Of a stretch of DNA of 64,000 nucleotides, positions 22,706-60,780 are shown in pieces. The position numbers and the translations under genes are program-made. Every line of letters starts with the position of its first letter. Position 1 is the first letter of the stretch. Origin of the DNA: Prevotella melaninogenica (GTDB lineage: Bacteria > Bacteroidota > Bacteroidia > Bacteroidales > Bacteroidaceae); assembly GCF_018127965.1 (NCBI RefSeq), contig NZ_CP072349.1:1244001-1308000 (forward strand), read 5' to 3'. The notes under the pieces were generated by a model. The model was not told where the DNA came from. It ran no database searches and saw nothing but the letters and a program-made list of their open reading frames with translations.

Positions 22706-22771
22706 AAAAGACGCCCTTTGGGGCTCTAACTAACGCCCTTTAAGAAGCCAATTAAGCACCTTTTAAAATCC
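22706..22771. repeat. 22-bp tandem array, family II (locus G)
   Basis: The core (A)CGCCCTTT recurs with its CCT at 22715, 22737 and (as GCACCTTTT) 22759, exactly 22 bases apart. Blocks ACTAACGCCCTTT and CCAATTAAGCACCTTTT are shared with the array at 55.5 kb. The rest of the 22.46-23.0 kb gap is AT-rich and I see no gene in it. Confidence 0.7.
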
Positions 22772-23008
22772 AACCTTATAACCACCAGAATATAAGGAAG
22801 TTACAAAGACAACACAAAACACACTTTTATACATTTCAAAAGGCTTAAAGGCAATAAATTATGTAAAGATATTTCGCACCTTAAAGGATAAATACATTCT
22901 ATCAAAGAATAAGCCATTAACCACACGCCAAATCCCAAAAAGCAAATAAAAGACAGCTTTTAAGTGAAGTCTTTAATGAAAAGCACCTATTAAATAACAA
23001 GAAAATAG

Positions 23009-23016
23009 TAACTTTG
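23009..23016 (+). promoter_or_regulatory. -7 box and long leader of the nuclease gene
   Basis: TAACTTTG stands 175 bases before the nuclease ATG; no -33 match is visible. The leader contains a 5-codon ORF (23043) followed at once by a 26-codon ORF (23061-23141). I do not recognise a riboswitch class in it. Confidence 0.45.
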
Positions 23017-23190
23017 TAAACATAAACAATTTACCGTAAAGTATGAAACTCAGCAGGTAAATGCTACCCTTCCCATATATTCTTAACCGACGATTTGAGA
23101 CGGAAAGTTCTCTTGTACTCATTAGAAAAGGGAATAAATGAGGGAGAGACGTAACTATCATAAATAGCATTAAATTCAAAACAACAATAA

Positions 23191-24075
23191 ATGAAGCATA
23201 TATTCCTAAAAACAATCATACTTTCTCTGTCCCTATTGGCTGTTGCATGCAAAGGAGAGAAACAGAGGCGAGATTTCTCAACATTAGACAAACCCTTTGT
23301 AGAATCCTATAACAACAATAGGTCTGAAGACACTAATACATCAAAGGGAAAGAAGAATGCGAACCAGAAAAACACATTTGAAGTAAAACAAGGCTTAGAA
23401 ATTCCTATCGGTAAAGCTAATATTCCGTCTTTCATACTCTATCGTGAGGGCTATACAACATCGTATAACGCAGAAACACGTACGCCTAATTGGGTAGCAT
23501 GGCATCTGACAGCAGCTCACACAAACGGACCTATTAAGCGCAAGGATATCACCTTCCAAGCAGACGAAGAAATACCAGCACCACGTGTTGACACTTACGA
23601 TTATATGCGTTCTGGCTACGACCGAGGACACATGTGTCCTGCTGGCGACAACCATTGGAGCCAAAAAGCAATGGAACAGAGCTTCCTAATGACAAATATT
23701 TGTCCACAAGAACCAGCGTTGAATAGTGGTTTGTGGAATACAGTAGAAAAGCTTTGTCGAACATGGGCAGAGCAATACGGCGATGTTTATATTGTCTGTG
23801 GACCTATCTATTTCAATCGAAAGCATAAGACAATTGGTAAGAATAAAGTGCAAGTGCCAGAGGCTTTCTTCAAAGTTGTCCTCCGACTGAAAGACGAACC
23901 GAAGGCTATTGGCTTTATTTGTAGGAACGCATCTGCTAAAGGACACAAGAAGACTGATTACGTCAATACAGTTGACGAGGTAGAACGTTTCACAGGAATG
24001 GACTTCTTCTCACAACTTCCTGATAACATTGAACAGGTAATAGAAAGCCAAGCTAATATAAAAGAGTGGTATTAA
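23191..24075 (+). CDS. DNA/RNA non-specific endonuclease, lipoprotein
   Basis: Metal-dependent nuclease of the NucA/NUC1 (beta-beta-alpha-Me) family. The 294-aa product starts with a lipoprotein signal (LAVAC, Cys20), has a polar linker to about residue 65, then the catalytic domain with the DRGH motif (144-147, in SGYDRGHMCPAGD) and the metal-binding Asn region (MTNICPQEPALNSGLWN). An envelope location, with nucleic-acid scavenging or DNA degradation, is likely. A RecD-like helicase follows 23 bases later on the same strand. Confidence 0.9.
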   Translation: MKHIFLKTIILSLSLLAVACKGEKQRRDFSTLDKPFVESYNNNRSEDTNTSKGKKNANQKNTFEVKQGLEIPIGKANIPSFILYREGYTTSYNAETRTPNWVAWHLTAAHTNGPIKRKDITFQADEEIPAPRVDTYDYMRSGYDRGHMCPAGDNHWSQKAMEQSFLMTNICPQEPALNSGLWNTVEKLCRTWAEQYGDVYIVCGPIYFNRKHKTIGKNKVQVPEAFFKVVLRLKDEPKAIGFICRNASAKGHKKTDYVNTVDEVERFTGMDFFSQLPDNIEQVIESQANIKEWY

Positions 24076-24098
24076 TAAGGAGTTAAAGACTTTAAGCG

Positions 24099-25631
24099 AT
24101 GGTAAATGAAGAACTAAAATATAGGATTTTACAGAACTTCGGATTTGCTCCTACTGCCGACCAGCTACATGCCGTAGAGGTCTTTGCACGCTTTATGACC
24201 GACCGTGATGAGCGTGCTGTAATGATTCTCAGAGGTAGTGCTGGTACGGGTAAGACCTCCTTAGCAGGTGCGATCGTGCGTACAATGCAGGAATTACGAC
24301 AGAAGGTTACACTCTTGGCACCAACTGGTCGTGCCGCAAAAGTATTCTCACAGAATGCCAATCAGCCTGCCGCAACGATTCATCGTTCTATCTATCGGGA
24401 AAAAGCATTTACAGGACTTGATGGGAAGTTTAATCTAAATGTCAATCTCTTCCATGACCGTTTGTTTATGGTTGATGAGGCATCTATGATTAGTCTGTCA
24501 TCAGGTAATACAACGTTCGGCAGTGGTTGCCTACTTGACGACCTTATCCAATATGTTTATAACGACCGTAACTGCCGTATGTTGCTTGTCGGTGACAAAG
24601 CACAGCTCCCTCCTGTTGGTGAAGAAGAGAGTCCTGCGCTGCGCGCAGATGTCCTCCGTGCTTATGGTCTGACGGTCTATGAGTGTGATTTAAACGAGGT
24701 TCTTCGTCAGAGTCAAGACTCTGGCATCCTCTATAACGCCACCGTTATTCGTCAAATGATAACCCATGACGAGGTTACGCAACTACCAAAGATTCGCTTC
24801 AACGGCTTTGCAGACATCTCCATCGTTTCAGGTGATGAACTTATCGAACGACTGGCTTCCAGCTATTCTGAGGTGGGAATCGATGAGACGATGGTTATCA
24901 CACGCTCCAACAAACGTACTAATGTATTCAATCAAGGTATTCGCAACATGGTTCTTGGACGTGAGGAAGAACTGACAACAGGCGATATGTTGATGGTCGT
25001 GAAGAATAAGTATAAGAACACCCCACCCCCTTCTCCATCCATCAATGGCAGCCTCAACAATGCTACAAATAATGTAAACAGCCTTACTACACAAGCGACA
25101 AGACAGATTACGCAACTCCCTTCAGGAGGTGGAAAGGAGATAGAAAAACCCGCACTTACCTTCATTGCCAACGGCGACCGAGCTGTTGTGCGTCGTGTTC
25201 GCAATGTTCGCGAGTTCTATGGGTTCCGCTTTGCCGATGTGTCACTGGAGTTTCCCGACTATAATAATGCCGAAGAGGAGATGACAGTCATTCTTGATGC
25301 ACTGATGACAGAAGCCCCCGCCTTAACACAAGAGCAGAACGAACAACTCTTCCAACGTGTGTTGGAGGATTATGAAGACATCCCCTTAAAGGCAGACCGC
25401 ATGAAAAAGGTGCGCGAAGATGAGTATTATAACGCCCTACAGGTAAAGTTCGGTTATGCTATCACCTGTCATAAAGCACAAGGCGGACAGTGGGCACACA
25501 TCTATCTTGACCAAGGATATATGACAGATGAGATGCTCACACCCGACTATATTCATTGGCTTTACACCGCTTTCACTCGTGCTACTGAACATCTCTACCT
25601 TGTCAACTGGCCCAAAACGCAAGTAGAATAG
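24099..25631 (+). CDS. RecD-like ATP-dependent helicase (UvrD_C_2)
   Basis: A 510-aa superfamily 1 helicase: Walker A GSAGTGKTS (46-54), LLAPTGRAAKVFS, Walker B MVDEASMIS, LLVGDKAQLPPVG, and the C-terminal motif GYAITCHKAQGGQW with YTAFTRATEHLYL. Residues about 307-350 form a Pro/Ser/Asn/Thr-rich insert (PPPSPS...NNATNN) in frame between KNKY and the conserved FIANGD block. The DNA of the insert is flanked by C-rich and G-rich stretches, suggesting a sequence inserted into the gene. It follows the nuclease gene by 23 bases. Confidence 0.87.
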   Translation: MVNEELKYRILQNFGFAPTADQLHAVEVFARFMTDRDERAVMILRGSAGTGKTSLAGAIVRTMQELRQKVTLLAPTGRAAKVFSQNANQPAATIHRSIYREKAFTGLDGKFNLNVNLFHDRLFMVDEASMISLSSGNTTFGSGCLLDDLIQYVYNDRNCRMLLVGDKAQLPPVGEEESPALRADVLRAYGLTVYECDLNEVLRQSQDSGILYNATVIRQMITHDEVTQLPKIRFNGFADISIVSGDELIERLASSYSEVGIDETMVITRSNKRTNVFNQGIRNMVLGREEELTTGDMLMVVKNKYKNTPPPSPSINGSLNNATNNVNSLTTQATRQITQLPSGGGKEIEKPALTFIANGDRAVVRRVRNVREFYGFRFADVSLEFPDYNNAEEEMTVILDALMTEAPALTQEQNEQLFQRVLEDYEDIPLKADRMKKVREDEYYNALQVKFGYAITCHKAQGGQWAHIYLDQGYMTDEMLTPDYIHWLYTAFTRATEHLYLVNWPKTQVE

Positions 25632-25954
25632 GCATTTGTAGCCGAAGTTTTAATCTCATTACATGGATAATAAACATTTCCATAAGACCTAAACAGCATA
25701 AAAAACATAATGATGTGCATCATCTACAGAGGCTATTAACACAGAGTACACCTATGATGCAAAAGGAATATACTGCTCTTTTATCTTTATAATAAAACAA
25801 TCTGGACTTAGCCTGAGTTGGTTTCATTTGTTCCTCCAAGCCTTTCCACATGATTAAACCCGATTTAACAATCAGAAGACACTTATCATAGACGCTTACA
25901 GAAAACATTCTAAGATGTATCTATCTATCGATTACCACATCTCCCACTGCCCTC

Positions 25955-26066
25955 TTTTAGAATTGTGTTGATGCCCAACACATGTGGTGCGCATGCCCCG
26001 CACCAATGGTGCGGAAGCTTAACACCAATAGTGTTGACCGCTTAACACAAGACGCCATGTTGTCAA
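25955..26066. repeat. 22-bp tandem array, family I (locus C)
   Basis: Five units begin at 25955 (decayed), 25977, 25999, 26021 and 26044. The best are AACACATGTGGTGC, CGCACCAATGGTGC and AACACCAATAGTGT. Spacing is 22 bases throughout except the last step of 23. The remaining 25632-26205 sequence holds no gene I can support. Confidence 0.75.
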
Positions 26067-26205
26067 CAAGAAAACAAAATACCATTAGCAAATATGAATA
26101 CGACCATTAGCAAATAACAATTACTTGCTTAAACCCAAATCATTCAACCACACAGATTTATAGTTAAAACATACTAAAAATAAACCAACTAAACGAAATT
26201 ATACC

Positions 26206-26213
26206 TATCTTTG
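26206..26213 (+). promoter_or_regulatory. -7 box for the Ala-rich lipoprotein
   Basis: TATCTTTG, 47 bases before the start codon; no -33 match seen. Confidence 0.55.
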
Positions 26214-26260
26214 GAAAATATAGTCGTTAAAATTTTAATTCACTTAAGCTAAAAAAGATT

Positions 26261-26842
26261 ATGAAGAAAGTATTTATTATGGCTATTGCTGTAGCAGCAA
26301 TGACCCTCGCAAGTTGTAACAACGGTAAGACTAATGCTCCTAAGGCTAATGCAGACTCAGACACAACAGAGTCAGTGGCAACTGATTCAGCAACAACTGC
26401 AGCAGCTCCAGCCTCAGCTGATCAGCTCATCGATCAACTCAACGAGAAAGTAAAGGCTAAGGACGATAAGGGTGTAGCTGCATTGCTTACAGCAGCACAG
26501 ACCAAAATGGCTGAATTGGCACAGAAGGATCCAAAAGAGGCACAGGCTTATGTTGCAAAACTTCAGCAGTGGATGCAGAGTAACTCTGAGAATATTAAGG
26601 CTGCTTTGAAGTCTTCTGGTAATGAAGCTGCTGCTAACGCAGTTGGTGCTGCTATCGACGCTGCATCAAAGGCAGACCCAAAGGCTATTACCGAAGGTAT
26701 GTCAAAGGCTAAGGAAGCTATGCAATCAGCATCACCTGAGCAGGTAGAAGCTGCTAAGAAGGCTGCCAAGGAAGCTGCAGAAAAGATGCAGGGCAAGTCT
26801 GGCGAGGCTGCACAGAAGGCAATGAAAGACTTAGGTCTTTAA
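26261..26842 (+). CDS. Ala-rich predicted lipoprotein, 193 aa
   Basis: Signal with lipobox MTLASC (Cys19), then a Thr/Ala-rich acidic linker (to about residue 52) and a long helical, Ala/Lys-rich region (DQLIDQLNEKVKAKDDKGV; EAAKKAAKEAAEKMQGK) of probable coiled-coil character. I recognise no enzymatic family. It is probably an abundant envelope lipoprotein, since codon choice resembles that of the highly expressed genes. Monocistronic, with its own -7 box and a 14-bp hairpin behind it. Confidence 0.7.
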   Translation: MKKVFIMAIAVAAMTLASCNNGKTNAPKANADSDTTESVATDSATTAAAPASADQLIDQLNEKVKAKDDKGVAALLTAAQTKMAELAQKDPKEAQAYVAKLQQWMQSNSENIKAALKSSGNEAAANAVGAAIDAASKADPKAITEGMSKAKEAMQSASPEQVEAAKKAAKEAAEKMQGKSGEAAQKAMKDLGL

Positions 26843-26851
26843 TATCATCTA

Positions 26852-26884
26852 CCCCACTTCCTTCACAGCTTGAAGGAAGTGGGG
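26852..26884 (+). terminator. Hairpin after the Ala-rich lipoprotein
   Basis: CCCCACTTCCTTCA (26852-26865) pairs perfectly with 26871-26884. No T run follows, so termination efficiency is uncertain. Confidence 0.6.
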
Positions 26885-26962
26885 AGATTATTCAAACCGA
26901 TACGATAAAGAAATCATCCAAGAGAAACACACTATCTCAAATAGTTTTCGTATCTTCGCACT

Positions 26963-27532
26963 ATGATCAAGATTGAAGATGCACAAAAGAAGCAGGCTAC
27001 AGTGATAGCCCGCTTGATTATGGAGGCTATGAACCACGAGTGTTGTCAGTGGTTTGCAGGTCCTAACCACACCTTAGAAGACTTTCATCTGCTAATGACA
27101 AGATTAGTGGGGCGTGAAGACTCGCAATACTCCTATCTTAATACACTTGTAGCAATAACAGAAACAAATAAGATTGTTGGTATCTGCGTCAGCTACGATG
27201 GAGCTAAACTTAGAGAGCTAAGAAAGGCTTTCATTGAAGGAGCTTTGGAGGCTTTCGGGCGTGACTTTTCTGGTATGGAGGACGAGACAACAGCTGGTGA
27301 ACTATATATTGACTCACTTTGTGTTGACAATTCTTTCCGTGGACGAGGGCTTGCTAAGCAGCTACTTGAAGCTACAATAGAGAAAGGAAGAAAGATGAAC
27401 CTCCCTACTGGATTACTTGTTGACACAGGAAACCCTCAGGCAGAACGACTTTATCACCATGTAGGATTCGTATATATGGGTGATAATCAATGGGGCGGTC
27501 ATAAGATGAAGCACCTACAAAAGTCACTCTAA
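26963..27532 (+). CDS. GNAT-family N-acetyltransferase
   Basis: A 189-aa GNAT. The acetyl-CoA site is LCVDNSFRGRGLAKQLLEA and the C-terminal beta bulge region is GLLVDTGNPQAERLYHHVGF. Substrate unknown. A -7-like box TATCTTCG (26951-26958) lies only four bases before the ATG, so the transcript is probably leaderless or nearly so. No operon partner; the cobalamin-regulated unit follows with its own promoter. Confidence 0.85.
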   Translation: MIKIEDAQKKQATVIARLIMEAMNHECCQWFAGPNHTLEDFHLLMTRLVGREDSQYSYLNTLVAITETNKIVGICVSYDGAKLRELRKAFIEGALEAFGRDFSGMEDETTAGELYIDSLCVDNSFRGRGLAKQLLEATIEKGRKMNLPTGLLVDTGNPQAERLYHHVGFVYMGDNQWGGHKMKHLQKSL

Positions 27533-27588
27533 AATCACATTTCAATAGGTGATAAGCATTATGCTGTAAGTAGAAAAGTACACCTTTA

Positions 27589-27620
27589 TTTGCCTATCTC
27601 TCCCCTTTGTCGTATCTTTG
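27589..27620 (+). promoter_or_regulatory. Promoter of the cobalamin uptake unit
   Basis: TTTG (27589-27592) and TATCTTTG (27613-27620) with a 20-base spacer; transcription would begin just before the riboswitch. Confidence 0.8.
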
Positions 27621-27627
27621 CATATGC

Positions 27628-27790
27628 AATAGGTTCATTACTATCATGATTAAAAAGGGAAAGCGGTGTAATTCCGCTACTGTCCCGCAGCTGTAAGTTG
27701 TCTCTCATTGGTAAGCTGATACCACTGGTGAATATAAAACCGGGAAGGTGCTTACCTACATTGGATAACAAGTCAGAAGACCTGCCATTG
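27628..27790 (+). promoter_or_regulatory. Cobalamin (AdoCbl) riboswitch
   Basis: The classical conserved blocks are all present: GGGAAAGCGGTG with AATTCCGCTACTGTCCCGC and GCTGTAA, then ACCACTGG, CGGGAAGGTG, and the B12 box AAGTCAGAAGACCTGCC (27770-27786). Downstream, CCCTCGAGGAAGGG can form a hairpin that would hide the purine-rich region before the receptor start. Binding of cobalamin should repress the genes behind it. Confidence 0.95.
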
Positions 27791-27851
27791 CAAGTCATTG
27801 CATCCCTCGAGGAAGGGCACTGCATAGAACCATTTGATTACAGAAAGAGAT

Positions 27852-29831
27852 ATGAGGCAGTTGGCTTCTTTCTTACTTTTATTGTGCCCACTCGGTGCGA
27901 TAGCACAGACTATTGATTCTGACACAACACAAACTATAGAGGAGGTTGTAGTCAATGGTTTCCGCATTTCTGGAAATGTATTGGCGAGTTCGCCAGTACA
28001 GACGCTTTCACATGCAGATATGGAACGACTTGGCATCCGTGATATGGGCGATGCCCTGAAACGCTTTGCTGGTGTGCAAGTGAAAGACTATGGTGGTGTA
28101 GGCGGTATGAAGACGGTCAACATCCGTGGACTTGGAGCTGGTCATACGGGAGTCGTTTATGATGGTGTTCAGGTGGGTGACTGCCAAAGCGGACAAGTAG
28201 ACCTATCTCGCTTTACCCTCGATAATATCTCACTCATCAGTCTTCAAATTGGTCAAGACGACAATATTTATCAGAGTGCAAAGTCATATGCTTCTGCAGG
28301 AATGATTAATATTAGTACACTGCAGGGCTATACAGACCGTAATAGTCAATCAACAAGAAAGAAGACTCAGCTCGCGGCAACCATCCGAACAGGTAGTTAT
28401 GGTCTATTCTCACCTTCCCTACTCTTCCACCAGCAGTTTTCACGCCTTGGTATTGGGGCATACGGAAGCTATGAAAGGGCTGATGGCGTTTACGCTTTCA
28501 AATTGAAAAATGGTGTTAAGACTATCAATGAACGACGTAACAATAGTGACATTGAGACTTGGAGAGGAGAAATTAACCTTGATTATCAGTTCAGTGATAA
28601 GCAAATACTGAAGTGGAAGACATACGGTTTCACCTCTCATCGAGGCTTACCGGGTGCAGTCATCTACGATAACACCTACTCTGCTGAACGATTAGTAGAC
28701 AAAAATGTCTTTACACAACTGTTCTATGAGAACCAATTTAGCCAGCATATCAAGTTGAAAGCAGCTGCTAAATGGAATTATTCATGGTCACGCTACTCAG
28801 ATGTGCCTGCCAGTGGCTATAAAGAAGATATCTACAGACAGCAGGAAGCATATCTAACAGCAACCTTATGGAGCGAGCCTTTACAAGGACTTCATCTCTC
28901 TTTGGCACAAGACTATGCACATAATCACCTTTCAATGTCGCTTTCACAGGCTGCAAACCCTACACGTAACTCTCTGTGGACAGCATTGGCAGCAAACTAT
29001 CGCATAGGTCAATTCACATTCAACACATCACTTCTTGCAACGAATATAACAGAACAAGTAAGACTCGGTAATGCCTCTAACGGCTTCCATCGTCTTTCGC
29101 CAGCCTTCAGTTTACAATGGAGAGCCTTACAAGACCTTCGTTTCCGCTTTGGATATAAGGATATCTTCCGCACACCAACACTCAATGAACTTTACTATAC
29201 AGGCATTGGCAATCGCCGATTAAACCCAGAAAAGTCACGTCAGTGGAATCTTGGTGCAACCTATTCTCACACCTTCAATCACACCCTTCAGCTTTCGTTG
29301 ACGGCAGATGGATACTTCGGTAATGTCACAGATAAGATTATTGCAGTACCAAAGATGTTCTACTGGCAAATGATGAATGCTGGTAAAGTGCGACAATTAG
29401 GGCTTGACATATCCGCTAACGCCGAGAAACGATGGGGCAAAGACTGGACCCTCAGTGTGACAGGAAGCTATAGCATGCTCAATGCAACCGACAGAACTAA
29501 TCCAACCGATATTTACTATGGACACCAGATAGCTTATACTCCACGCCATTCGGGTTCAATCAGTTCGCTGCTACATACCCCGTGGCTGGACTTAAGCTAT
29601 AATCTACTGTTAATGGGTGAACGTTATTCGCTGGGATATAATATTCCAAATAACCGTATGGCAGCCTTTACCGACCATAGTATCACGATTTCAAAGGATA
29701 TAAACTTCCTCGAACAGCAACTACATCTACAGTTTGACTTACGCAACCTTGGTAATAAAAACTATGAGGTTGTACGCTTTTATCCTATGCCAGGAACAAA
29801 CTGGCGATTCTCAGTAAGTTGGAAACTCTGA
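27852..29831 (+). CDS. btuB: BtuB-like TonB-dependent vitamin B12 receptor
   Basis: Outer-membrane receptor for cobalamin uptake, energised by TonB. The 659-aa product has a signal peptide (MRQLASFLLLLCPLGAIAQ), a TonB-box-like start (TIEEVVVNG), a plug domain (MERLGIRDMGDALKRFAGVQ; GGMKTVNIRGLG) and a barrel ending in NWRFSVSWKL. The start at 27852 precedes the signal peptide directly; an earlier in-frame codon adds six residues that break it. Assignment to cobalamin rests on the riboswitch immediately upstream and the BtuG-like gene behind. Confidence 0.9.
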   Translation: MRQLASFLLLLCPLGAIAQTIDSDTTQTIEEVVVNGFRISGNVLASSPVQTLSHADMERLGIRDMGDALKRFAGVQVKDYGGVGGMKTVNIRGLGAGHTGVVYDGVQVGDCQSGQVDLSRFTLDNISLISLQIGQDDNIYQSAKSYASAGMINISTLQGYTDRNSQSTRKKTQLAATIRTGSYGLFSPSLLFHQQFSRLGIGAYGSYERADGVYAFKLKNGVKTINERRNNSDIETWRGEINLDYQFSDKQILKWKTYGFTSHRGLPGAVIYDNTYSAERLVDKNVFTQLFYENQFSQHIKLKAAAKWNYSWSRYSDVPASGYKEDIYRQQEAYLTATLWSEPLQGLHLSLAQDYAHNHLSMSLSQAANPTRNSLWTALAANYRIGQFTFNTSLLATNITEQVRLGNASNGFHRLSPAFSLQWRALQDLRFRFGYKDIFRTPTLNELYYTGIGNRRLNPEKSRQWNLGATYSHTFNHTLQLSLTADGYFGNVTDKIIAVPKMFYWQMMNAGKVRQLGLDISANAEKRWGKDWTLSVTGSYSMLNATDRTNPTDIYYGHQIAYTPRHSGSISSLLHTPWLDLSYNLLLMGERYSLGYNIPNNRMAAFTDHSITISKDINFLEQQLHLQFDLRNLGNKNYEVVRFYPMPGTNWRFSVSWKL

Positions 29832-29929
29832 GGAAAAAGTAGCAAAAAAGCAAAAGAGGAATGTGCAAAAATAATAAGAAAGAGAACAAAACAAGATAAC
29901 AATAAATTATAAACAAAACAACAAGAAAA

Positions 29930-30979: not shown

Positions 30980-30988
30980 GAAAAATAA

Positions 30989-31206: not shown

Positions 31207-31285
31207 CTAATAATTGGTGTTAAGCCTGCGCACCATTGGTGTTAAGCCTCCACACAATATGTGCTGAGCCTCCACACAATGATAA
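31207..31285. repeat. 22-bp tandem array, family I (locus D)
   Basis: Units at 31207 (half decayed), 31229 and 31251, with a partial unit at 31273, all 22 bases apart: CGCACCATTGGTGTTAAGCC and CACACAATATGTGCTGAGCC. The spacer TTAAGCCTC is itself conserved between units. Confidence 0.75.
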
Positions 31286-38153: not shown

Positions 38154-38184
38154 CAAAGGTAAGAAATTTCTTGACTATCTCCAA
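38154..38184 (-). promoter_or_regulatory. Promoter of the HU-like gene
   Basis: On the minus strand TTG (38182-38184) and TACCTTTG (38154-38161) with 20-base spacing. The leader of about 75 bases contains a GC-rich self-complementary stretch (GCCTCCAAAGGC with GCCCC/GGGGC). Confidence 0.65.
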
Positions 38185-38214: not shown

Positions 38215-38349
38215 ACCCTTTTTCGCAAAAGGGTTCACCTAAATGAGTAAAACCATCTACCTATTACCAGAAAACTGTCTACCTTTTCCGCCAAAAGGGT
38301 CTACCTTTTCTATTAAAAAGGTCTACCTTTTTCGCCGAAAAGGTAGACC
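38215..38349. repeat. 22-bp tandem array, family III (locus I)
   Basis: ACC(T/C) recurs at 38215, 38237, 38259, 38281, 38303, 38325 and 38347, seven times at exactly 22 bases. The best units read TCTACCTTTTCCGCCAAAAG. The last unit also forms a perfect 12-bp hairpin: GGTCTACCTTTT (38320-38331) with 38338-38349. The first forms AACCCTTTT/AAAAGGGTT. Confidence 0.75.
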
Positions 38350-38521
38350 ATTTTTGAAGAAAGTGACAAACCTATTTTGAAGATTTGGATATGGTTAATT
38401 AATAACCCTAATAAGAATATGCGGTATTTGGCTTTCATTTTGTCCAACGATTTTCAATCTCTATTTTCATATCTCTGATAATTTAATGGTCATCGGCGTT
38501 GGAAAATAGAAGATTATGATG

Positions 38522-38545: not shown

Positions 38546-39406
38546 ATGTATAATATGTCTATAAATGTTATTGAATCGGTTATACAGACCAATCGTTCTC
38601 GAGAGTTGGTAAGTCAAATTATACCTATTCTCATAAGTTGGGCAAAACATCGGTTAACTAATAAGACCTATGGAGACTTGCTTTCAGCCTTGGGGTATAC
38701 ACGCTTTTCAGGTATTGGAAGGCAACTTGGAAATGTGGAAACTGTTTTACAAGAACTTCGAGAGAGTACTGGAGCCGTAGATATCCCAACTCTAAATGCG
38801 TTAGTTAAAAATCCAAAGTCAGACCTTCCCGCTGATGGTTTCGAATTTGTGTATCCTAATTATAAAAAGCTATCTGTTCCTGAAAAGAAGATCTTCATTG
38901 CTGGGATGAATGAAAAAGCATGCGCTTATACAAAATGGGACTGGGTATTGAAAGAGTTGGGATTGAAGGAAGCTATTCTGCTTTCAGAGTATCAACTAAA
39001 TACTATAAAGAACGTACAATTTAACTATGGAGGTGAAGGGGTTGAACATAAAAACTTAAGGGAATACATCCTTGAGCATCCAGAAAGTATTAATTCTAAC
39101 AATATAGTTTTTAAAGAAACAGAATATATATTGCCATCAGGAGACAGACTTGATGTTTACTTTGAATTTGAAGATAGAAAACATGTAGCCATAGAAGTTA
39201 AGCCAAGTACCTCTCCAGAGTCTGATATTATCCGTGGTATTTTCCAGTGTGTCAAATATCAAGCTGTAATGGATGCGTTAAAAAGGATAGAGTGCCAAGA
39301 CTATGGAATAGAAGTCATTTTACTTGTAGCTAAGAAATTATCTTTTCAAGAAAGAACACTTGCAGAAGAGCTCCGGATATCATATATAGAAAACTTTAAA
39401 ATGTAA
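38546..39406 (+). CDS. Orphan PD-(D/E)XK nuclease-like protein, 286 aa
   Basis: Unrecognised as a named family. The N-terminal half holds a helical module (YGDLLSALGYTRFSGIGRQL; DIPTLNALVKNPKSDLPADG) like one I associate with restriction- and HNH-type proteins. The C-terminal half contains GDRLDVYFEFEDRKHVAIEVKP, which fits the D...(D/E)xK core (Asp of LDVYF, Glu and Lys of IEVK), followed by a helical segment with Gln (IFQCVKYQAV). No methyltransferase or partner is present. A DNA-acting or defence role is inference from the motif and the accessory setting beside an IS. Confidence 0.6.
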   Translation: MYNMSINVIESVIQTNRSRELVSQIIPILISWAKHRLTNKTYGDLLSALGYTRFSGIGRQLGNVETVLQELRESTGAVDIPTLNALVKNPKSDLPADGFEFVYPNYKKLSVPEKKIFIAGMNEKACAYTKWDWVLKELGLKEAILLSEYQLNTIKNVQFNYGGEGVEHKNLREYILEHPESINSNNIVFKETEYILPSGDRLDVYFEFEDRKHVAIEVKPSTSPESDIIRGIFQCVKYQAVMDALKRIECQDYGIEVILLVAKKLSFQERTLAEELRISYIENFKM

Positions 39407-41140: not shown

Positions 41141-41198
41141 GGCTATTGAGCGCTGTAATATAAAACAATAATAACTAAGGTGCACTTTTAAGATATAC

Positions 41199-41266
41199 AA
41201 AGAAGTTGCAATAACAGATAGGTACGCAAACCATATTCCTATCCTTTATTGCAACTTCTTTTTTTC
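41199..41266 (+). terminator. Terminator of trmD
   Basis: AAAGAAGTTGCAATAA (41199-41214) pairs perfectly with 41245-41260, with an inner GATAGG/CCTATC stem, followed by T bases. Confidence 0.85.
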
Positions 41267-54372: not shown

Positions 54373-54537
54373 ATTCCAGGCTTTAACGTTTATATGCGCA
54401 AAGATACAAATCAATTTCTAAGAAACATAGAAATTCATTCATGAAAAAGATACTTTTAGGGAAGAAAAGAGTGAGATGCGTGAAGTTTTTTGTATTTTTG
54501 CGACAACGATTTATTCATTATATAATAAAGAAAGAAC

Positions 54538-55212
54538 ATGAACATGATAACTTATGAATTTGTACTGAGACTATTCGTTGCTGCTATGCTTGGTGGTGTG
54601 ATTGGCTTGGAGCGTGAGTATCGTGCAAAGGAGGCAGGTTTCCGAACCCACTTCCTTGTGGCATTAGGTAGTGGTTTGTTTATGATTCTATCACAGTTTG
54701 GCTTTGATGATGTACTCGGCCATTACGAGCAAGTGTCACTCGACCCCAGTCGTATAGCCTCACAAGTAGTAACGGGTATTGGTTTCATTGGTGCAGGGAC
54801 GATTATCTTTCAGAAGCATGTCGTACGCGGACTGACAACAGCGGCAGGTCTATGGGTAACATCTGCTATTGGTATGACTGCAGGTGCAGGAATGTATGTA
54901 CTCTCTATTGCAACAACAGTCCTCGTCTTGCTCTGTTTAGAAGCACTTTATTTTATCCTACAGCATTTTGGAACACGCAATATAACCGTTACTTTTAGTA
55001 CTCCAAAAGAAGAAAACATTCAACCTGTTTTGCAACGATTACGCGATAAGGAGATTATTATTGACTCCTATGAGATGACACGCAAAGACACTTCTTCAGG
55101 TCATTACTTTGTTGTGACAATGGAAATGAAGTTCAAGCGGAAACGTTATAAGAATCATCTCCTTAACTTTATGGCTGAATTTGAAAACGTAACTGTTGAA
55201 ACTATGGAGTAA
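54538..55212 (+). CDS. MgtC/SapB-family membrane protein
   Basis: A 224-aa inner-membrane protein. The N-terminal MgtC domain is clear (FVAAMLGGVIGLEREYRAKE; GFRTHFLVALGSGLFMILSQ; VVTGIGFIGAGTII; RGLTTAAGLWVTSAIGM), with about five membrane segments. A soluble ACT-like C-terminal domain starts near residue 150 (NITVTFSTPKEENIQPVLQR). MgtC proteins act in magnesium or acid homeostasis in other bacteria; the role here is unknown. The -7 box is TATTTTTG at 54493-54500. Confidence 0.9.
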   Translation: MNMITYEFVLRLFVAAMLGGVIGLEREYRAKEAGFRTHFLVALGSGLFMILSQFGFDDVLGHYEQVSLDPSRIASQVVTGIGFIGAGTIIFQKHVVRGLTTAAGLWVTSAIGMTAGAGMYVLSIATTVLVLLCLEALYFILQHFGTRNITVTFSTPKEENIQPVLQRLRDKEIIIDSYEMTRKDTSSGHYFVVTMEMKFKRKRYKNHLLNFMAEFENVTVETME

Positions 55213-55254
55213 ATAGGAGCTGAAAAAATGGTTTTTCTGTTAAGCACCAAATCG

Positions 55255-55288
55255 ATGTTTAACCTCTAATGACCGACTTTGGTTTAAT
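55255..55288 (+). repeat. Short dispersed repeat, copy 1
   Basis: ATGTTTAACCTCTAATGACC matches ATGTTTAGGCTCTAATGACG at 60657 (19 of 22 bases, then looser similarity). It lies behind the MgtC gene; a GATAGTCTTA hairpin (55330-55358) follows. Confidence 0.35.
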
Positions 55289-55498
55289 ACATAGATTGAA
55301 AATAGAATAAAGACTGATACATTTGCATAGTAAGACTATCCTAAATAGATAGTCTTACATAGTGAACAAACTACAAGATAAAATGCAAATAGATACTATG
55401 TCTTTCTGTATTCTACAAATAGCTTATTCTCACATTATTGGTATTTGTAAACTATTTTCATGCAACTCAAAACCAATATATGCTCTTTTGCCTTCTTA

Positions 55499-55580
55499 TA
55501 GACGCCCTTTAAGCTTGCAAAAGGTGCCCTTTAAGACCCTTACTAACGCCCTTTTGAAGTCCAATTAAGCACCTTTTTTC
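55499..55580. repeat. 22-bp tandem array, family II (locus H)
   Basis: The CCTTT core recurs at 55506, 55528, 55550 and 55572, exactly 22 bases apart: GACGCCCTTT, GGTGCCCTTT, AACGCCCTTT and AAGCACCTTTT. Spacers include ACTAACGCC and CCAATTAAGC, shared with the 22.7-kb array. No gene is visible in the 55213-55835 gap. Confidence 0.75.
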
Positions 55581-55835
55581 AAACTACTTCATAAACAACT
55601 GATTTACTGTTGGTTACAAACTTGCTTTTTACACTTGTTTTTGCCGTTATTTATAGATACTTTACCAGAAACTATGTAATGATTTTTCAAAGGTTTATCT
55701 ATAAGTTTTCTTCATGTAAATGACTTCTTCTTTTTACAAAATAGCTCAGCAGTAGGACTTAGATATCCCCCAAAGTTGCTAAAATGAAGGAGTAAAATTT
55801 AGACAATCAAGGAGTAGATAACCACTAACAAAATA

Positions 55836-56357
55836 CTAAAAAACGCGCTGAAAAGCTAATCTACTATCTCCATTCTCAACATAGATAATACCACAATAAA
55901 CGAAACCTAAACGAATCAAAGAAACCTGCATCGGGCGATTATCTGCATGCGTATCTATACGAATAGAAGAGGTAAATGCCGAACAATAGTTGATTATGTC
56001 AGCCAATACACCATGTACACCTTCCAAAGAAGCCACACGATGGATGACATAATAAGGTTGCTCATCAAGCCAACTACCATTATCAATACGGTGGTAATTT
56101 GGTTCTGGACCCGCCTTAGCTACAAAGGTTGCGATAGGCTTCCCACACTCATAAAGTAGATAACAATCACCTTGTGCAATGTCACGCCTTATAGTACTAT
56201 CCGCAGGATAATTTGCTGACCATTGATTAGGATTACCAGCTTTAATCATCTTTGCTTTCCCCTGCTCAATTAGGTTCGATACTATAGTAAAATCATCTGT
56301 TGATGTTTTGCGGATAGTACGATTAGATGACAGATTTATTGTTTTCTCCTTTGTCAT
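55836..56357 (-). CDS. GNAT-family N-acetyltransferase
   Basis: A 173-aa GNAT-fold protein beginning MTKEKTINLSSNRTIRKTST. YYVIHRVASLEGVHGVLADI corresponds to the acetyl-CoA region, though the usual R/Q-x-x-G-x-G/A loop is degenerate (SLEGVHG). IRIDTHADNRPMQVSLIRLG is the C-terminal motif. Substrate unknown. The -7 box TATTTTTG is at 56388-56395 (minus). It is divergent from glutamine synthetase. Confidence 0.78.
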   Translation of the reverse strand: MTKEKTINLSSNRTIRKTSTDDFTIVSNLIEQGKAKMIKAGNPNQWSANYPADSTIRRDIAQGDCYLLYECGKPIATFVAKAGPEPNYHRIDNGSWLDEQPYYVIHRVASLEGVHGVLADIINYCSAFTSSIRIDTHADNRPMQVSLIRLGFVYCGIIYVENGDSRLAFQRVF

Positions 56358-56500
56358 AAGATTTATACTTTTCTATTTCTAACGAGGCAAAAATACGAAG
56401 AAAAACTAACATCAAGTTCCTAATATAAAGAAAGTTGTACAAAACGAAAAATAAAGAATACCACACTGATAATAAATAGAGAAAAATAGTATGAAAATAA

Positions 56501-56531
56501 TTGCGAATAAAGAAATTAATATGTATTTTTG
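56501..56531 (+). promoter_or_regulatory. Promoter of glnA
   Basis: TTG (56501-56503) and TATTTTTG (56524-56531) with a 20-base spacer; ATG 39 bases downstream. Confidence 0.7.
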
Positions 56532-56570
56532 TCCTCATAATCAAATACTAATCTTATAAAAGCTACGACA

Positions 56571-58076
56571 ATGGAGAATAACCTTTTTAAGTGTTCAGCA
56601 AATAGACTGGAAGCACACTTGGGCAAAGACTCACATGAATTTACTAAAGATGATATCAAGCAAGTTGTCAGTGACTTGAACATCAGAATGGTCAACTTCA
56701 TGTATCCTGCTGGTGACGGACGATTGAAGACACTAAACTTCATGCTTCACACACCCGACTACTTGGAGACAATACTTACAAGTGGCGAGCGCGTGGATGG
56801 TTCTTCGCTCTTCAGCTTTATTGCAGCTGGAAGTAGTGACCTCTATGTAATGCCACGCTTCTCTACAGCGTTCATCGATCCTTTCTCAGAGATACCAACA
56901 CTTTGCATGCTCTGTTCTTTCTTCGATCGAGATGGTAATCCATTAGCATCATCTCCAGAATATACACTCCGCAAGGCTATGGATGCCTTTAAGAAAGTAA
57001 CTGGTATGGAGTTCCATGCTATGGGTGAGTTAGAATACTACGTTATCCGAGAGGATGAAGGTGTATTCCCTGCTGACGACCAACATGGTTATCACGAGAG
57101 TTCTCCTTTCTCTAAAGGCAATGACTTCCGTATGCGCTCTATGCAGTTGATTGCTGAATGTGGCGGTAAGATTAAGTATGGACATTCTGAGGTAGGTAAT
57201 TTCATTGAGAATGGACGTTGCTACGAACAGAATGAAATTGAGTTCTTGCCAGTTCCAGCAAATGAATGTGCTGAACAGTTACTCATTGCTAAATGGGTGA
57301 TTCGTAGCTTAGGTTACGAAGAAGGACTTGATATTACCTTCGCTCCAAAGATTACTGTGGGTAAGGCTGGTTCTGGTATGCATATCCACATGCGTATAAT
57401 GAAGGATGGAAAGAACATGATGCTCGATGGTGGAAAGCTGTCTAAGGATGCTCGTCGCGCCATTGCTGGTATGATGGACTTAGCTGAAAGTATCACTGCC
57501 TTTGGTAACAAGAACCCAACTTCATACTTCCGTCTCGTTCCACATCAGGAGGCTCCTACAAATGTATGCTGGGGTATGAGTAACCGTTCTGTTCTTGTGC
57601 GCGTACCATTAGGTTGGACTTCTGGCGAGGATATGTGCCACAAGGCTAATGATATAGAACCACTTACAGCGCGTGACTACTCTATCAAACAGACTGTAGA
57701 AATGCGTTCTCCAGACGCTTCTGCTGATATCTATCAGCTTTTAGCTGGTCTTTGCGTGGCTTGTCGTCATGGTTTTGAGATGGCAAACGCTGAAGCTGAG
57801 GCTGAGAGAACCTTTGCAGACGGTGATATTCACGACCCAAAGAATGCAGAACGCTATGCTACCTTGGCTCAGTTGCCTGATAGCTGTGCTGCTTCAGCAG
57901 ACTGTTTGGAACATCAACGTAAGGTTTATGAAGAGTATGATGTGTTCTCTCCTGCAATGATTGATGGTATTATCAAACAGCTTCGCTCATACAATGACCG
58001 TACACTACGTCAAGAGATTGAAGGCAAGGAGATGATGATGGAGAAACTTGTTCGTCAATACTTCCACTGCGGATAA
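56571..58076 (+). CDS. glnA: Glutamine synthetase, type I-like
   Basis: ATP-dependent amidation of glutamate, the main ammonia assimilation step. The 501-aa product shows MGELEYYVIRED (metal-binding Glu), NEIEFLPVPANECAEQLLIAK, GSGMHIHMRI (His of the ammonia site), NKNPTSYFRLVPHQEAPTNV and VEMRSPDASADIYQLLAGL. The region where adenylylated GSI enzymes have NLYDLPP reads ATLAQLPDS here, so the adenylylation tyrosine appears to be absent. It is clearly distinct from the large GSIII type of Bacteroidales. Confidence 0.92.
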   Translation: MENNLFKCSANRLEAHLGKDSHEFTKDDIKQVVSDLNIRMVNFMYPAGDGRLKTLNFMLHTPDYLETILTSGERVDGSSLFSFIAAGSSDLYVMPRFSTAFIDPFSEIPTLCMLCSFFDRDGNPLASSPEYTLRKAMDAFKKVTGMEFHAMGELEYYVIREDEGVFPADDQHGYHESSPFSKGNDFRMRSMQLIAECGGKIKYGHSEVGNFIENGRCYEQNEIEFLPVPANECAEQLLIAKWVIRSLGYEEGLDITFAPKITVGKAGSGMHIHMRIMKDGKNMMLDGGKLSKDARRAIAGMMDLAESITAFGNKNPTSYFRLVPHQEAPTNVCWGMSNRSVLVRVPLGWTSGEDMCHKANDIEPLTARDYSIKQTVEMRSPDASADIYQLLAGLCVACRHGFEMANAEAEAERTFADGDIHDPKNAERYATLAQLPDSCAASADCLEHQRKVYEEYDVFSPAMIDGIIKQLRSYNDRTLRQEIEGKEMMMEKLVRQYFHCG

Positions 58077-58120
58077 AGTATACATCATTCTAATATATCA
58101 CTACTATTAGTCCAAATATA

Positions 58121-58157
58121 AAATCCCAGGCAACGAAAAGGTTGTCTGGGATTTTTT
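58121..58157 (+). terminator. Terminator of glnA
   Basis: AAATCCCAGGCAAC (58121-58134) pairs with 58141-58154 (one G-T pair), followed by T bases. Confidence 0.88.
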
Positions 58158-58298
58158 AAATGGAAATGTTTTACTTAGTAATATATACATCTAATCTCTT
58201 GTTTAACATATTATTACAAAACTATCATAGAAACCTATCAGAAGAGAAATAATGGCATACACTTTGCTCCTTTTAAATCTATTAAAGAATAAGAGATT

Positions 58299-59024
58299 AT
58301 GAGTTTACAAGAAATATTAGATCATAGAAGGGCTGTCAGACATTTCGATCCTAAGAAACCACTCGATAGCACAGTTGTAAAGAAATGTATTGAACAAGCG
58401 ACATTGGCTCCAACAAGTTCTAACTTACAACTTTGGGAGGCTTATCATGTAACTGACAAGAAGGTTTTGGAGAAGTTGGCACCAGCATGCTTGGACCAGT
58501 TAACAGCGCGTTCTGCCCAACAGATAGTTGTATTTGTGACTCGACAGGACCTCTATAAGAAACATGCACAGGCAACACTTGCATTTGAGAAGCAGAACAT
58601 CAACAAGTACAGTCCTACAGAGAAGAAGGAAAAGCGCATTAAGAAATTAGAACTATATTATGCAAAAGTAATGCCGTTTCTCTATTCACGTTGCTTTGGC
58701 TTGTGGGGACTTGTTCGTAAAGGCTTAGCACAAACGATTGGACTTTTCCGCCCGATCATGCGTCAAGTAAGTGAAGGCGACATGCGAGTTAGTGTACACA
58801 AGAGTTGTGCTTTGGCTGTTCAGACATTTATGTTAGCAATGAGTGAGGCTGGCTATGACACTTGTCCACTTGAAGGTTTCGATAGTCTGTTGGTAAAGAA
58901 GGCACTGAATCTACCTTACAATACAGAAATAAACATGGTTATAACCTGTGGTGTTCGTATACAAGATGGCGTTTGGGGAGATCGTTATCGCCGTCCATTT
59001 GAGGAAACCTATCATTTGGTTTAG
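58299..59024 (+). CDS. Nitroreductase-family protein
   Basis: FMN-dependent oxidoreductase fold, 241 aa. The start LQEILDHRRAVRHFDPKKPL carries the R(S/A)VR FMN phosphate-binding segment, APTSSNLQLWEAYHV follows, and the C-terminal part has ALAVQTFMLAMSEAGYDTCP and NMVITCGV. A roughly 50-residue insert in the middle (FEKQNINKYSPTEKKEKRIK to GLFRPIMRQV) is longer than in classic NfsB. The physiological substrate is unknown. It stands alone; no -7 box was convincing. Confidence 0.85.
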   Translation: MSLQEILDHRRAVRHFDPKKPLDSTVVKKCIEQATLAPTSSNLQLWEAYHVTDKKVLEKLAPACLDQLTARSAQQIVVFVTRQDLYKKHAQATLAFEKQNINKYSPTEKKEKRIKKLELYYAKVMPFLYSRCFGLWGLVRKGLAQTIGLFRPIMRQVSEGDMRVSVHKSCALAVQTFMLAMSEAGYDTCPLEGFDSLLVKKALNLPYNTEINMVITCGVRIQDGVWGDRYRRPFEETYHLV

Positions 59025-59191
59025 CCTCCTTTCTGTAACAACGCCCTTATTTTCTATATATGTTTCCTCAAAAAATTAGTGAAAGTATATCCTATCACAA
59101 GAACAAAAAACGAAAGACCTAAATACGTATACAAAAGAGAGTTAATTAGTATTTTATTCCTACTCCTCTATTGTATATAAAAGAAAAAGCG

Positions 59192-59199
59192 TATCTTTG
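59192..59199 (+). promoter_or_regulatory. -7 box of ugd
   Basis: TATCTTTG, 26 bases before the chosen ATG; TTG at 59171-59173 is 18 bases upstream. The longer in-frame start at 59171 would precede the box and is rejected. Confidence 0.6.
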
Positions 59200-59224
59200 C
59201 AAAATAAACAATCTGAACAAGACA

Positions 59225-60484
59225 ATGGATAAGGATATTAAAGACTTAAAAATAGCTGTAGCCGGAACGGGCTATGTAGGTCTCAGCATTGCAACACTGC
59301 TGAGCCAACACCATCATGTAACAGCTGTTGACGTAGTAAAGGAAAAGGTTGACCTCATAAACAACAGACGTTCGCCTATTCAAGATGATTATATTGAACA
59401 GTATTTGGCAGAGAAGGATTTAGATCTTACTGCCACATTGGATGCAGAGACTGCTTATAGGGATGCGGACTTTGTAGTCATCGCTACGCCAACTAATTAC
59501 GATCCTGTAAAGAACTACTTTGACACACGACGTGTTGAGGAAGTTATCGAAATCGTAATGAAGGTGAATCCTGGTGCGATAATGGTCGTTAAGTCTACGA
59601 TTCCTGTTGGCTACACTGAGCATATTAGAGCAAAATACAAGTGTAATAACATTCTCTTTGCTCCAGAATTCCTACGTGAAAGCAAGGCTCTTTATGACAA
59701 TCTTTACCCAAGTCGTATTATCATTGGTCGACCTGAAGGTGACGAACGCTTGGAACAAGCAGCACAGCTATTTGCTCAATTACTGCAAGAAGGAGCGATA
59801 AAGGAGAACATCCCTACTCTATTTATGGGACTAACAGAGGCAGAAGCGGTGAAACTCTTTGCTAATACTTACCTTGCACTACGTGTAAGTTACTTCAATG
59901 AGTTAGACACCTATGCTGAGGTAAAAGGTCTTGACACATCTAACATCATTCAAGGTGTATGTCTTGACCCACGTATCGGCTCCTTCTACAACAATCCTTC
60001 TTTCGGTTATGGCGGCTATTGTCTGCCTAAGGACACTAAGCAGTTACTTGCTAACTATGCCGATGTACCTGAAAATCTTATCCAGGCAATCGTTGAAAGC
60101 AATCGTACACGCAAGGACTTCATAGCTGACCAAGTATTGCATAAAGCTGGATATTACGACTATTACGACCGTGGCGACTATAGCCCAGAAGATGAGAAAG
60201 AGTGCGTCATCGGTGTCTATCGTCTCACGATGAAGTCAAACAGTGACAACTTCCGACAGAGTTCTATTCAGGGAGTCATGAAGCGTATTAAGGCAAAGGG
60301 TGCGCAAGTCATCATCTATGAGCCTACGCTTGAAGATGGCGCAACCTTCTTCGGCAGTCTTGTTGTCAATAATCTTGAAGATTTCAAACAGCGTTGTCAT
60401 GCCATTATCGCCAACAGATACGACAAATGTCTTGATGATGTAAAGGAAAAAGTGTACACAAGAGATATATTTAGAAGGGATTAA
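59225..60484 (+). CDS. ugd: UDP-glucose 6-dehydrogenase-type nucleotide-sugar dehydrogenase
   Basis: Oxidises UDP-glucose (or a related UDP-sugar) to the uronic acid for polysaccharide or capsule synthesis. The 419-aa chain has the NAD-binding fold ([20 protein letters not shown]), [43 protein letters not shown], the active-site Cys in [11 protein letters not shown] and the C-terminal UDP-binding domain ([20 protein letters not shown]). No other polysaccharide genes are adjacent. UDP-glucose is the most likely substrate; UDP-ManNAc type enzymes cannot be fully excluded. Confidence 0.85.
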
Positions 60485-60495
60485 TATAATCCCAA

Positions 60496-60645
60496 ATGCG
60501 GTCATTAGACCACAAAAGCATAGCTCTTATTACTATAGTCTTGTTTCCTAACATCTTTTATTTCCTTATCGGCATCTTGTCTGTCTTTGTAACTTGGCGT
60601 AGCCCGCTACGCCTGTGTTCCAAAGCCAAACAATCTACTCGATAA
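60496..60645 (+). CDS. Possible 49-aa membrane peptide over a palindrome
   Basis: The ORF starts 11 bases after the ugd stop: MRSLDHKSIALITIVLFPNI then FYFLIGILSVFVTWRSPLRL, with one long hydrophobic segment and a basic tail. The same DNA contains a strong hairpin (GGCGTAGC 60596-60603 with GCTACGCC 60606-60613, extended by CTTTG/CAAAG), which could be the ugd terminator or a palindromic repeat. The coding reading is therefore doubtful, and no family is recognised. Confidence 0.3.
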   Translation: MRSLDHKSIALITIVLFPNIFYFLIGILSVFVTWRSPLRLCSKAKQSTR

Positions 60646-60656
60646 TAAAACAAAAT

Positions 60657-60689
60657 ATGTTTAGGCTCTAATGACGGATTTGGGATAAT
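60657..60689 (+). repeat. Short dispersed repeat, copy 2
   Basis: ATGTTTAGGCTCTAATGACG, the second copy of the sequence at 55255. Confidence 0.35.
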
Positions 60690-60724
60690 CCCATTCTCCC
60701 CCCTCAGCCAATGTATTCATACTC

Positions 60725-60780
60725 ATCACTCATGGTGCTAACAGTAAACACCATGAGTGCTAATGATATACACCTTCCGA
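60725..60780. repeat. 22-bp tandem array, family I (locus F)
   Basis: Units at 60725 (ATCACTCATGGTGCTAACAG), 60747 (AACACCATGAGTGCTAATG) and a partial at 60769 (TACACC), exactly 22 bases apart. The rest of the 60646-61206 gap holds the CCTGTCAT element and no gene. Confidence 0.7.

Follow-up and report, generated by a model that had tools for sequence, protein, structure and literature searches.

Intergenic arrays with a 22-bp pitch in Prevotella and their possible link to proteins of the HU-HIG family

HU-like proteins are mostly taken to bind DNA unspecifically or, like IHF, to be specific for single sites. REP (repetitive extragenic palindrome) and REPIN sequences are many short palindromic intergenic elements that form species-specific families. 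Here we describe short intergenic repeat arrays with a pitch of 22 bp, found in a 64,000-nucleotide stretch of Prevotella melaninogenica (contig NZ_CP072349.1, positions 1,244,001 to 1,308,000; hereafter the window, with positions counted from its first letter), and their association with genes for HU-HIG (PF18291), an HU-like family reportedly defined by Burroughs and colleagues in a 2017 paper on the HU superfamily.

Three of the closest described systems are compared here. The preferred target of the P. gingivalis HU protein PG0121 is a 77-bp inverted repeat beside the locus that it regulates, and the protein favours distorted DNA and a single long inverted repeat (PMC3969353). The likeness lies in an HU-type protein, here a candidate binder, and in a preferred target adjoining a regulated locus; the arrays described here differ in having short units at a fixed pitch and many paralogues as candidate binders. 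PG0121 is a DNABII (IHF/HU) protein and, we assume, not a member of HU-HIG. BldC of Streptomyces binds cooperatively, head to tail, to direct repeats of variable number and forms protein-DNA filaments; unlike HU-HIG it is MerR-like and unrelated to HU, a single protein on short AATTXXXX(C) direct repeats (PMC5859096). The BrickBuilt MITE (miniature inverted-repeat transposable element) and the 22/23/41-nt repeats of P. gingivalis, which belongs to the same phylum, are likewise tandem, intergenic and of similar unit length, but BrickBuilt is one family with MITE ends, made of up to 22.8 direct repeats of 23 nt without spacer, and its unit number varies between strains (PMC4596501). The pairing of HU-HIG genes with 22-bp arrays is new to us, and our searches of the open-access literature brought up neither a description of 22-bp arrays in Prevotella nor any work on the DNA targets of HU-HIG or its binding to arrays.

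The 22-bp pitch is a real and conserved feature that depends little on sequence. Exact 7-mer matches in the intergenic DNA of the window numbered 59 at lag 22, 13 at lag 44 and 9 at lag 66, with 0 to 8 at each remaining lag from 3 to 80; the coding DNA gave 5 matches at lag 22 and no peak. In a sample of the same genome (G000), made up of the window and 59 stretches and covering 1.244 of 3.218 Mb, the intergenic matches were 888 at lag 22, 560 at 44 and 176 at 66, and those at other lags from 3 to 119 were mostly 20-120, with rises at 7, 14 and 21 (295, 299 and 232). This sample held 158 intergenic segments that scored at least 12 at lag 22 (the threshold used for segments here and in relatives), compared with 2 to 26 at other periods between 15 and 30. 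Pairs of the word CACnnnnnGTG were found 226 times at a distance of 22 in its intergenic DNA, counting both strands (113 places), 86 times at 44, and at most twice at any other distance up to 120. Over the entire genome there are 274 such pairs at a spacing of 22, and the reversed control pattern gives 0.

The pitch extended to relatives, where the unit sequences varied from species to species. We used the PFOR protein encoded beside the array at 11004 as a query against genome contigs and kept the best 80 named Prevotellaceae loci. In their pooled intergenic DNA, lag 22 ranked first (744), followed by 44 (430), 21 (314) and 14 (302), with all but a few other lags below 100, and segments that scored at least 12 numbered 53 at period 22 versus 2 to 23 at other periods between 16 and 30. 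On the 3' side of the PFOR gene there are family I units in G000, TTGTTCGCGAACAA in P. vespertina, TGGGA...TCCC in P. denticola and family II units in P. multiformis; no array was seen downstream of the gene in P. histicola and P. dentasini. The gene after PFOR is not the same in all species, so that the sites compared are similar in position without being strictly orthologous. The initial annotation had proposed that three unrelated families at nine loci share one period. That period was confirmed at eight clear arrays of families I to III in the window (Table 1) and recurred with several unit sequences in the genome sample and the relatives; the scope of three families and nine loci proved too narrow, as there are more families, genome-wide and in relatives.

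Four families are distinguished in G000: I (CACnnnnnGTG with an 11-bp linker), II (AAAGGGCRT), III (AAAAGGTnnACCTTTT) and IV (TTATTTTCATGAAAATAA), and rarer array units include TCTTATAAGA and GTAGAAATATTCATC. The 75 family I arrays of the sample comprise 33 with two units, 41 with three and one with four. Judged by eye, family I arrays seem to belong to a larger ordered element that spans about 190 bp, and family II elements keep a fixed order over about 220 bp and end in TTTGTAAC and TTTACAAA. Families II and III share 8-mers and, by eye, an outer AAAAGG and CTTTT, and may therefore be related to each other. Arrays lie in intergenic regions of every gene orientation, on which ground an element acting only as a promoter or only as a terminator was rejected.

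Core and spacing were conserved between G000 and two very close relatives, G358 and G156, which are 95% and 94-97% identical to it in nucleotides around the array at 11004. We compared arrays with a score of at least 13 in the window and in L023-L026, taking only those inside aligned stretches and thus omitting arrays in regions replaced in a relative, for example those at 11004 (G156), 31213 (G358) and 38249 (G156). The 26 array comparisons covered 1891 array bases without a single gap opening and 9212 flank bases with 43. The gap count, like the core count below, is somewhat lowered by the choice of arrays for their core in G000 and for aligned DNA. Substitutions amounted to 5.1% in arrays versus 7.4% in flanks. 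Family I, the one family for which core and linker were separated, had 0 substitutions in 198 CAC/GTG core positions, 6 in 165 of the inner five bases and 21 in 231 linker positions; the linker drifts at near the flank rate yet keeps its length. A fixed core with a drifting linker of constant length fits spaced protein-binding sites, not a copying machine.

These comparisons, with the distribution of the families, bear on three rival accounts of the arrays. The least probable is a process, by slippage or a dedicated enzyme, that builds tandem arrays in 22-bp steps by copying, one of two mechanisms offered in the initial annotation; near-identical units in some arrays (for example L084:7252 and L104:7119) would suit it. 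We rejected such a machine because no unit was gained or lost in the 26 comparisons, a result that speaks against frequent gain or loss on the time scale separating G000 from G358 and G156; in addition, family I linkers differ while the cores agree, and the 23-bp arrays of some HU-HIG genes, described below, would require a second machine. The strain-to-strain changes in unit number by which active expansion was to be recognised did not appear, the numbers looking frozen relative to both relatives. A single ancestral repeat, the annotation's alternative explanation for the common spacing, finds little support, as the motifs are mostly unlike and one HU-HIG group keeps 23 bp. That the arrays act as RNA, forming tandem hairpins in transcripts, is suggested by the inverted repeats inside their units but is very improbable: the window arrays have no Rfam match up to an E of 1, and covariation is absent from the outer base pair of family I (GT 67 and AC 15 of 193, where independent columns give 68 and 16 by hand calculation), on which two grounds it was rejected, and the genes on either side of the arrays have every orientation. 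Dispersed mobile or selfish repeats of the REP, REPIN or MITE kind, without host function, are improbable too, although families I and II do resemble ordered dispersed elements of the lengths estimated above, with conserved flanks and in every orientation. The Y1 transposase of a REPIN/RAYT system (Y1_Tnp, PF01797) had 0 matches in G000, while 4 of 13 genomes have one, and this system was rejected. G000 thus differs from REP or REPIN with RAYT in having no match to the transposase, in its fixed 22-bp pitch, held by several unlike families, and in the positions of its arrays, which where aligned stay put between close relatives, without insertions or deletions and with the core unchanged.

One array of the window, that of family III, lies upstream of an HU-HIG gene; we refer to such an array as a home array. 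The window protein matches PF18291 with an E of 1.9e-16 and 60.7 bits, above the curated cut-off of 26.2; its match to HU_rel (TIGR01201; E 3.3e-16, 59.6 bits) is below that model's cut-off of 68.6, which the MSVEIRLEQ gene of G000 exceeds with 80.1 bits. It has 338 homologues, and all 120 of those listed carry PF18291; the array-bearing genes discussed below are likewise members by profile search. Some HU-HIG homologues (P0025, P0079, P0096 and P0100) bear the public name 'histidinol phosphate phosphatase', which is evidently wrong. The AlphaFold2 model of the window protein is too poor to use (mean pLDDT 43.9), and a search of PDB sequences gave only a chance-level match (E 0.51). With canonical HU included, PF18291 matches number 65 in G358, 30 in P. 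vespertina, 9 in G000 and 6 in G156. Among the matches listed for 99 genomes of the class, high-scoring HU-HIG proteins occurred in G000, in two others of its family and in one more, and most of the other listed matches begin inside the profile and resemble plain HU. G000 has a near-identical second copy of the window gene on another contig (G000:C2:227971-230915, L267), with its own family III array.

Arrays were enriched upstream of HU-HIG genes. We counted a gene as having an array when one lay within 500 bp on its 5' side. In a first set of 96 genes, 59 of them from G358, 57 had a 22-bp array and 10 a 23-bp array; with all genes as controls, the numbers were 87 and 5 of 801 in G000 and 19 and 1 of 155 in the G358 region. 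Adding 20 picked protein matches and 3 genes of other genera from the class search gave 119 genes, of which 81 had an array (70 at 22 bp, 9 at 23 and 2 at 21); the totals for both sets, for the clusters and for the strong arrays keep three open reading frames that look miscalled (L196, L197 and L211), and the family II gene of G000 (L266) entered with a 23-bp AT-rich array near its start, not with its family II array. Against a second control set, genes preceded by 250 bp or more of intergenic DNA, 22-bp arrays were found at 70 of 119 HU-HIG genes versus 76 of 316 controls in G000 and 15 of 60 in G358. The enrichment was about 5.5-fold relative to all genes and about 2.4-fold relative to genes with long upstream regions. 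Strong arrays (score at least 30) preceded 31 of 119 HU-HIG genes and 16 of 316 controls. Among 36 clusters of HU-HIG proteins at 60% identity, 25 included one or more members with an array; L196, which accounts for one of these clusters, is probably a wrong reading frame. Two arrays of G358 that have no counterpart in the window sit directly 5' of HU-HIG genes.

The motif of the upstream array, and in part its pitch, followed the HU-HIG subfamily. The arrays are mostly private to each subfamily and are not copies of the common dispersed families. The family III motif stands 5' of MANRPIAY genes in G000 (both copies), G358, P. vespertina, P. multiformis and P. denticola; the family IV motif goes with the MTVNYKLLRTS gene in G000, G358 and P. 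multiformis, whose product, at 198 aa in G000, is longer than the HU-HIG profile. Arrays of AAGTATGATACTT and CTCGGTATAGGAC belong to MAFFKKVKKK genes and those of CAAATTCAGTGTATTTG to genes of G228 and G348, and the motifs of many subfamilies found only in G358 share 8-mers with no array or one array of G000. Motifs were shared in 161 of 196 protein pairs with at least 80% identity and in 74 of 2827 pairs below 45%. Gene and upstream array descend together, so that shared motifs are by themselves no proof of binding. In the clusters led by MISFKVVETT and MVEFEVKSKK, all in G358 and with several motifs, the pitch was 23 bp in 8 of 8 genes (L241, L242, L259, L260, L262-L265), and a P. histicola HU-HIG gene has a 21-bp array upstream (L209). 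With the peaks at 21 and 14 in relatives, this means that the pitch is not uniform; the best hint of a spacing set by the protein is that the pitch changes with the subfamily.

A promoter is predicted between the family III array and the window HU-HIG gene. The motif scan used the Bacteroidota promoter consensus. Across 81 HU-HIG loci, TAnnTTTG occurred between array and start in 28, compared with a mean of 6.5 and a maximum of 12 in 200 shufflings. At 20 loci with TTGn-N19-TAnnTTTG past the array, the box lay 32-39 bp from the array end in 7 and 57-58 bp in 2, the latter distance being about one unit beyond the former, and the remaining 11 were scattered from 2 to 394. The position of the predicted promoter agrees with a regulator site that lies 5' of the -33 element.

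Families II, III and IV also occur as dispersed arrays, alongside HU-HIG genes with a like motif upstream. Family II pairs were counted over forward and reverse strands. In a survey of 44 genomes, family II pairs numbered 104 in G000, 80 in G358, 86 in G156, 135 in G320 and 217 in P. histicola, where the MSVEIRLEQ protein is 100, 99, 98, 99 and 92% identical to that of G000, respectively. Pairs were few in P. multiformis (7; protein 89%), P. denticola (1; 90%), G026 (4; 73%) and G188 (2), and there were 0 in the other 35 genomes, including P. vespertina (72%). Family IV pairs numbered 165 in G320, 73 in G358, 57 in G000, 56 in G156, 11 in P. denticola, 2 in P. multiformis, 1 each in three genomes and 0 in the rest; the pattern is AT-rich and its reversed control reaches 8 matches in some genomes, so that counts of 1 or 2 are meaningless. 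The family IV HU-HIG protein was present at 88-100% identity in G000, P. multiformis, G320, P. denticola and G358. Since G000, G358, G156, G320 and others are close kin, shared descent explains much of this co-occurrence. For family I, 22-spaced pairs numbered 274 in G000, 245 in G358, 267 in G156, 144 in G320, 62 in P. denticola, 42 in P. multiformis, 22 in P. histicola and 82 in G067, a metagenome-assembled genome of the Prevotellaceae.

From these patterns, we lean towards the view that the arrays consist of successive sites bound by HU-HIG paralogues, each with its own motif and all with nearly the same pitch, on which the proteins would form cooperative filaments. The suspicion that one pitch across unlike families has a shared cause is supported by its recurrence in the genome and in relatives, and of the mechanisms first offered, a filament-forming protein that fixes the spacing is favoured; the part that did not stand is a single protein tolerating many sequences, in whose place we would put paralogues that each read a motif of their own. 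We infer binding, dimers, cooperativity, autoregulation and the HU-HIG binders of the dispersed arrays, above all those of family I. HU-HIG would be an HU-like family expanded in Prevotella, in which each paralogue reads its own short, often dyad-symmetric core. Dimers would occupy adjacent units about two helical turns apart (22 bp, or 23 bp in two subfamily clusters), and the fixed spacing would place them on one face of the DNA, allowing a short cooperative filament. An array before an HU-HIG gene, upstream of its promoter, would serve autoregulation, and dispersed arrays with the same motif would be further sites of the same protein, acting as local silencers, boundaries or nucleoid anchors. 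We think it likely that the family III and family IV home arrays are private arrays of their HU-HIG genes with a common pitch; for the dispersed arrays in general, we regard the HU-HIG reading as evenly balanced.

Several observations weigh against HU-HIG proteins as the binders. Most arrays are far from HU-HIG genes: the G000 sample had 2 of its 152 arrays within 700 bp upstream of an HU-HIG-like reading frame, the relatives' loci 2 of 56, the G358 region 5 of 26 and the G156 region 0 of 19, and these samples contain 4, 4, 6 and 0 such reading frames, respectively. Family I, the largest family, has no HU-HIG neighbour; its partner was sought among the nine PF18291 loci of G000 and that idea was rejected, no family I array lying near the gene at any of them, though single CACnnnnnGTG words do occur there. 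The family II link depends on an array 425 bp upstream of the HU-HIG gene in G000. Arrays were missing in 6 of 7 members of cluster MANKPIQFIL, 5 of 5 of MSIKFRMYQD and 9 of 13 of MSVEIRLEQS, and the second family III copy contains one 21-bp step. G156 has its family IV pairs and no family IV HU-HIG-like protein at an E of 1e-20 or below, perhaps through recent gene loss, and P. multiformis has the protein (91%) yet only its 2 pairs. Motifs of foreign home arrays share 8-mers with G000 arrays, in 50 of 146 for L315, 20 for L242, 19 each for L314 and L321, 15 for L262, 11 for L217 and 8 for L223, so that this comparison is not clean. A full promoter match was only somewhat commoner upstream of HU-HIG genes (37 of 119) than of controls (64 of 316). 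Dyad symmetry (p 0.05), found in 60 of 81 home arrays and in 25 of 48 dispersed arrays of relatives, was present in 71 of 146 dispersed arrays of G000, little above the 41 of 132 segments with other periods; symmetry is thus common, not universal.

Some of these points, namely the distance of most arrays from HU-HIG genes, the lack of such a neighbour for family I and the family IV pairs of G156 without the gene, together with the arrays that long intergenic regions often carry anyway (the 76 of 316 controls), would also be expected if the arrays were cooperative sites of other DNA-binding proteins and the HU-HIG genes were targets of these regulators or simply lay in array-rich regions. We consider this rather unlikely, because the arrays upstream of HU-HIG genes are mostly private to a subfamily and their period shifts to 23 with the subfamily.

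In a 220-kb stretch of G358, 5 of 6 HU-HIG genes follow a gene for a lipoprotein-like protein of 526-553 aa, and 4 of the five have a detected upstream array. The lipoprotein-like genes have a long dinucleotide repeat of 12-27 units about 450-700 bp upstream of their start (L172, L164, L165, L168 and L181/L182, at G358:C2:708000-715500, 753000-766000, 791000-797500, 840000-847500 and 894500-902500), and a sixth repeat, of 37 units, lies about 5 kb off. Two of the proteins had no Pfam match. Long dinucleotide repeats were absent from the 1.244-Mb sample of G000 and from 180 kb of G156, and none was found in the 2.9 kb of each of 52 other HU-HIG loci of G358, loci too short to reach that far. 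These loci may be a family of phase-variable surface cassettes. A more speculative and doubtful extension is that of many parallel chromatin systems, in which each HU-HIG protein would polymerise on its own palindromic array of 22 or 23 bp, motif and protein would co-diversify by duplication, dispersed arrays would mark many intergenic boundaries in each genome, and the five HU-HIG proteins of the G358 stretch would act as if each gated one phase-variable surface antigen cassette.

Table 1. Arrays and associated features of the window.
Feature	Position	Strand	Basis or remark
Family I array, CACnnnnnGTG, 22-bp pitch	4636-4707		Lies in stretches that align with G358 and G156
Family I array, three units, downstream of PFOR gene	11004-11058		Present in G358; region replaced in G156
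Family II array, AACGCCCTTT / AAAGGGCRT units	22658-22773		Present in G358 and G156
Family I array	25971-26033		
Two-unit 22-bp repeat ACCATTAGCAAATA, unassigned to a family	26081-26121		May be the ninth locus of the initial annotation
Family I array	31213-31280		Present in G156; G358 region has another 22-bp array and an HU-HIG gene
HU-HIG gene, HU family DNA-binding protein, 155 aa	37605-38072	-	Pfam PF18291
Predicted Bacteroidota-type promoter of HU-HIG gene, TTGG-N19-TACCTTTG, between array and gene	38154-38184	-	Motif scan
Family III array, about five 22-bp units, core AAAAGGTnnACCTTTT	38249-38362		TRF; lag-22 score 40
Family II array	55476-55554		
Family I array, two units	60727-60759		

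Other features were also recorded. The reading frame adjoining the family III array (38546-39406) matches Tox-REase-9 weakly, with 24.9 bits where the cut-off is 27.3. The window also contains a cobalamin riboswitch (27613-27803, E 3.4e-26) and a match on both strands to the plastid psbA 3' untranslated region hairpin family (41197-41263; 34.4 bits versus a gathering score of 56.8), which is probably no more than a symmetric hairpin, for instance a terminator. G358 has an insert of 541 bp (L165:4057-4599, that is, G358:C2:784057-784599) at window site 22865-22874, some 100 bp away from the family II array. Its ends are inverted (TTTCTGTGTTTTGATAAAAGTACTAA), about 10 bp of the site are duplicated, and the insert, which codes for 140 aa, is probably an insertion sequence remnant.

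If HU-HIG paralogues do read these arrays, the Bacteroidota would have a large orthogonal set of sequence-addressed nucleoid proteins, the targets of these could be predicted from sequence, and an expanded family of unknown role would gain a function. Such reading would also account for a large share of the intergenic repeats in a genus that is major in humans and in the rumen, and the home arrays with their genes would offer ready protein-site pairs with which to test how specificity arises in HU folds.

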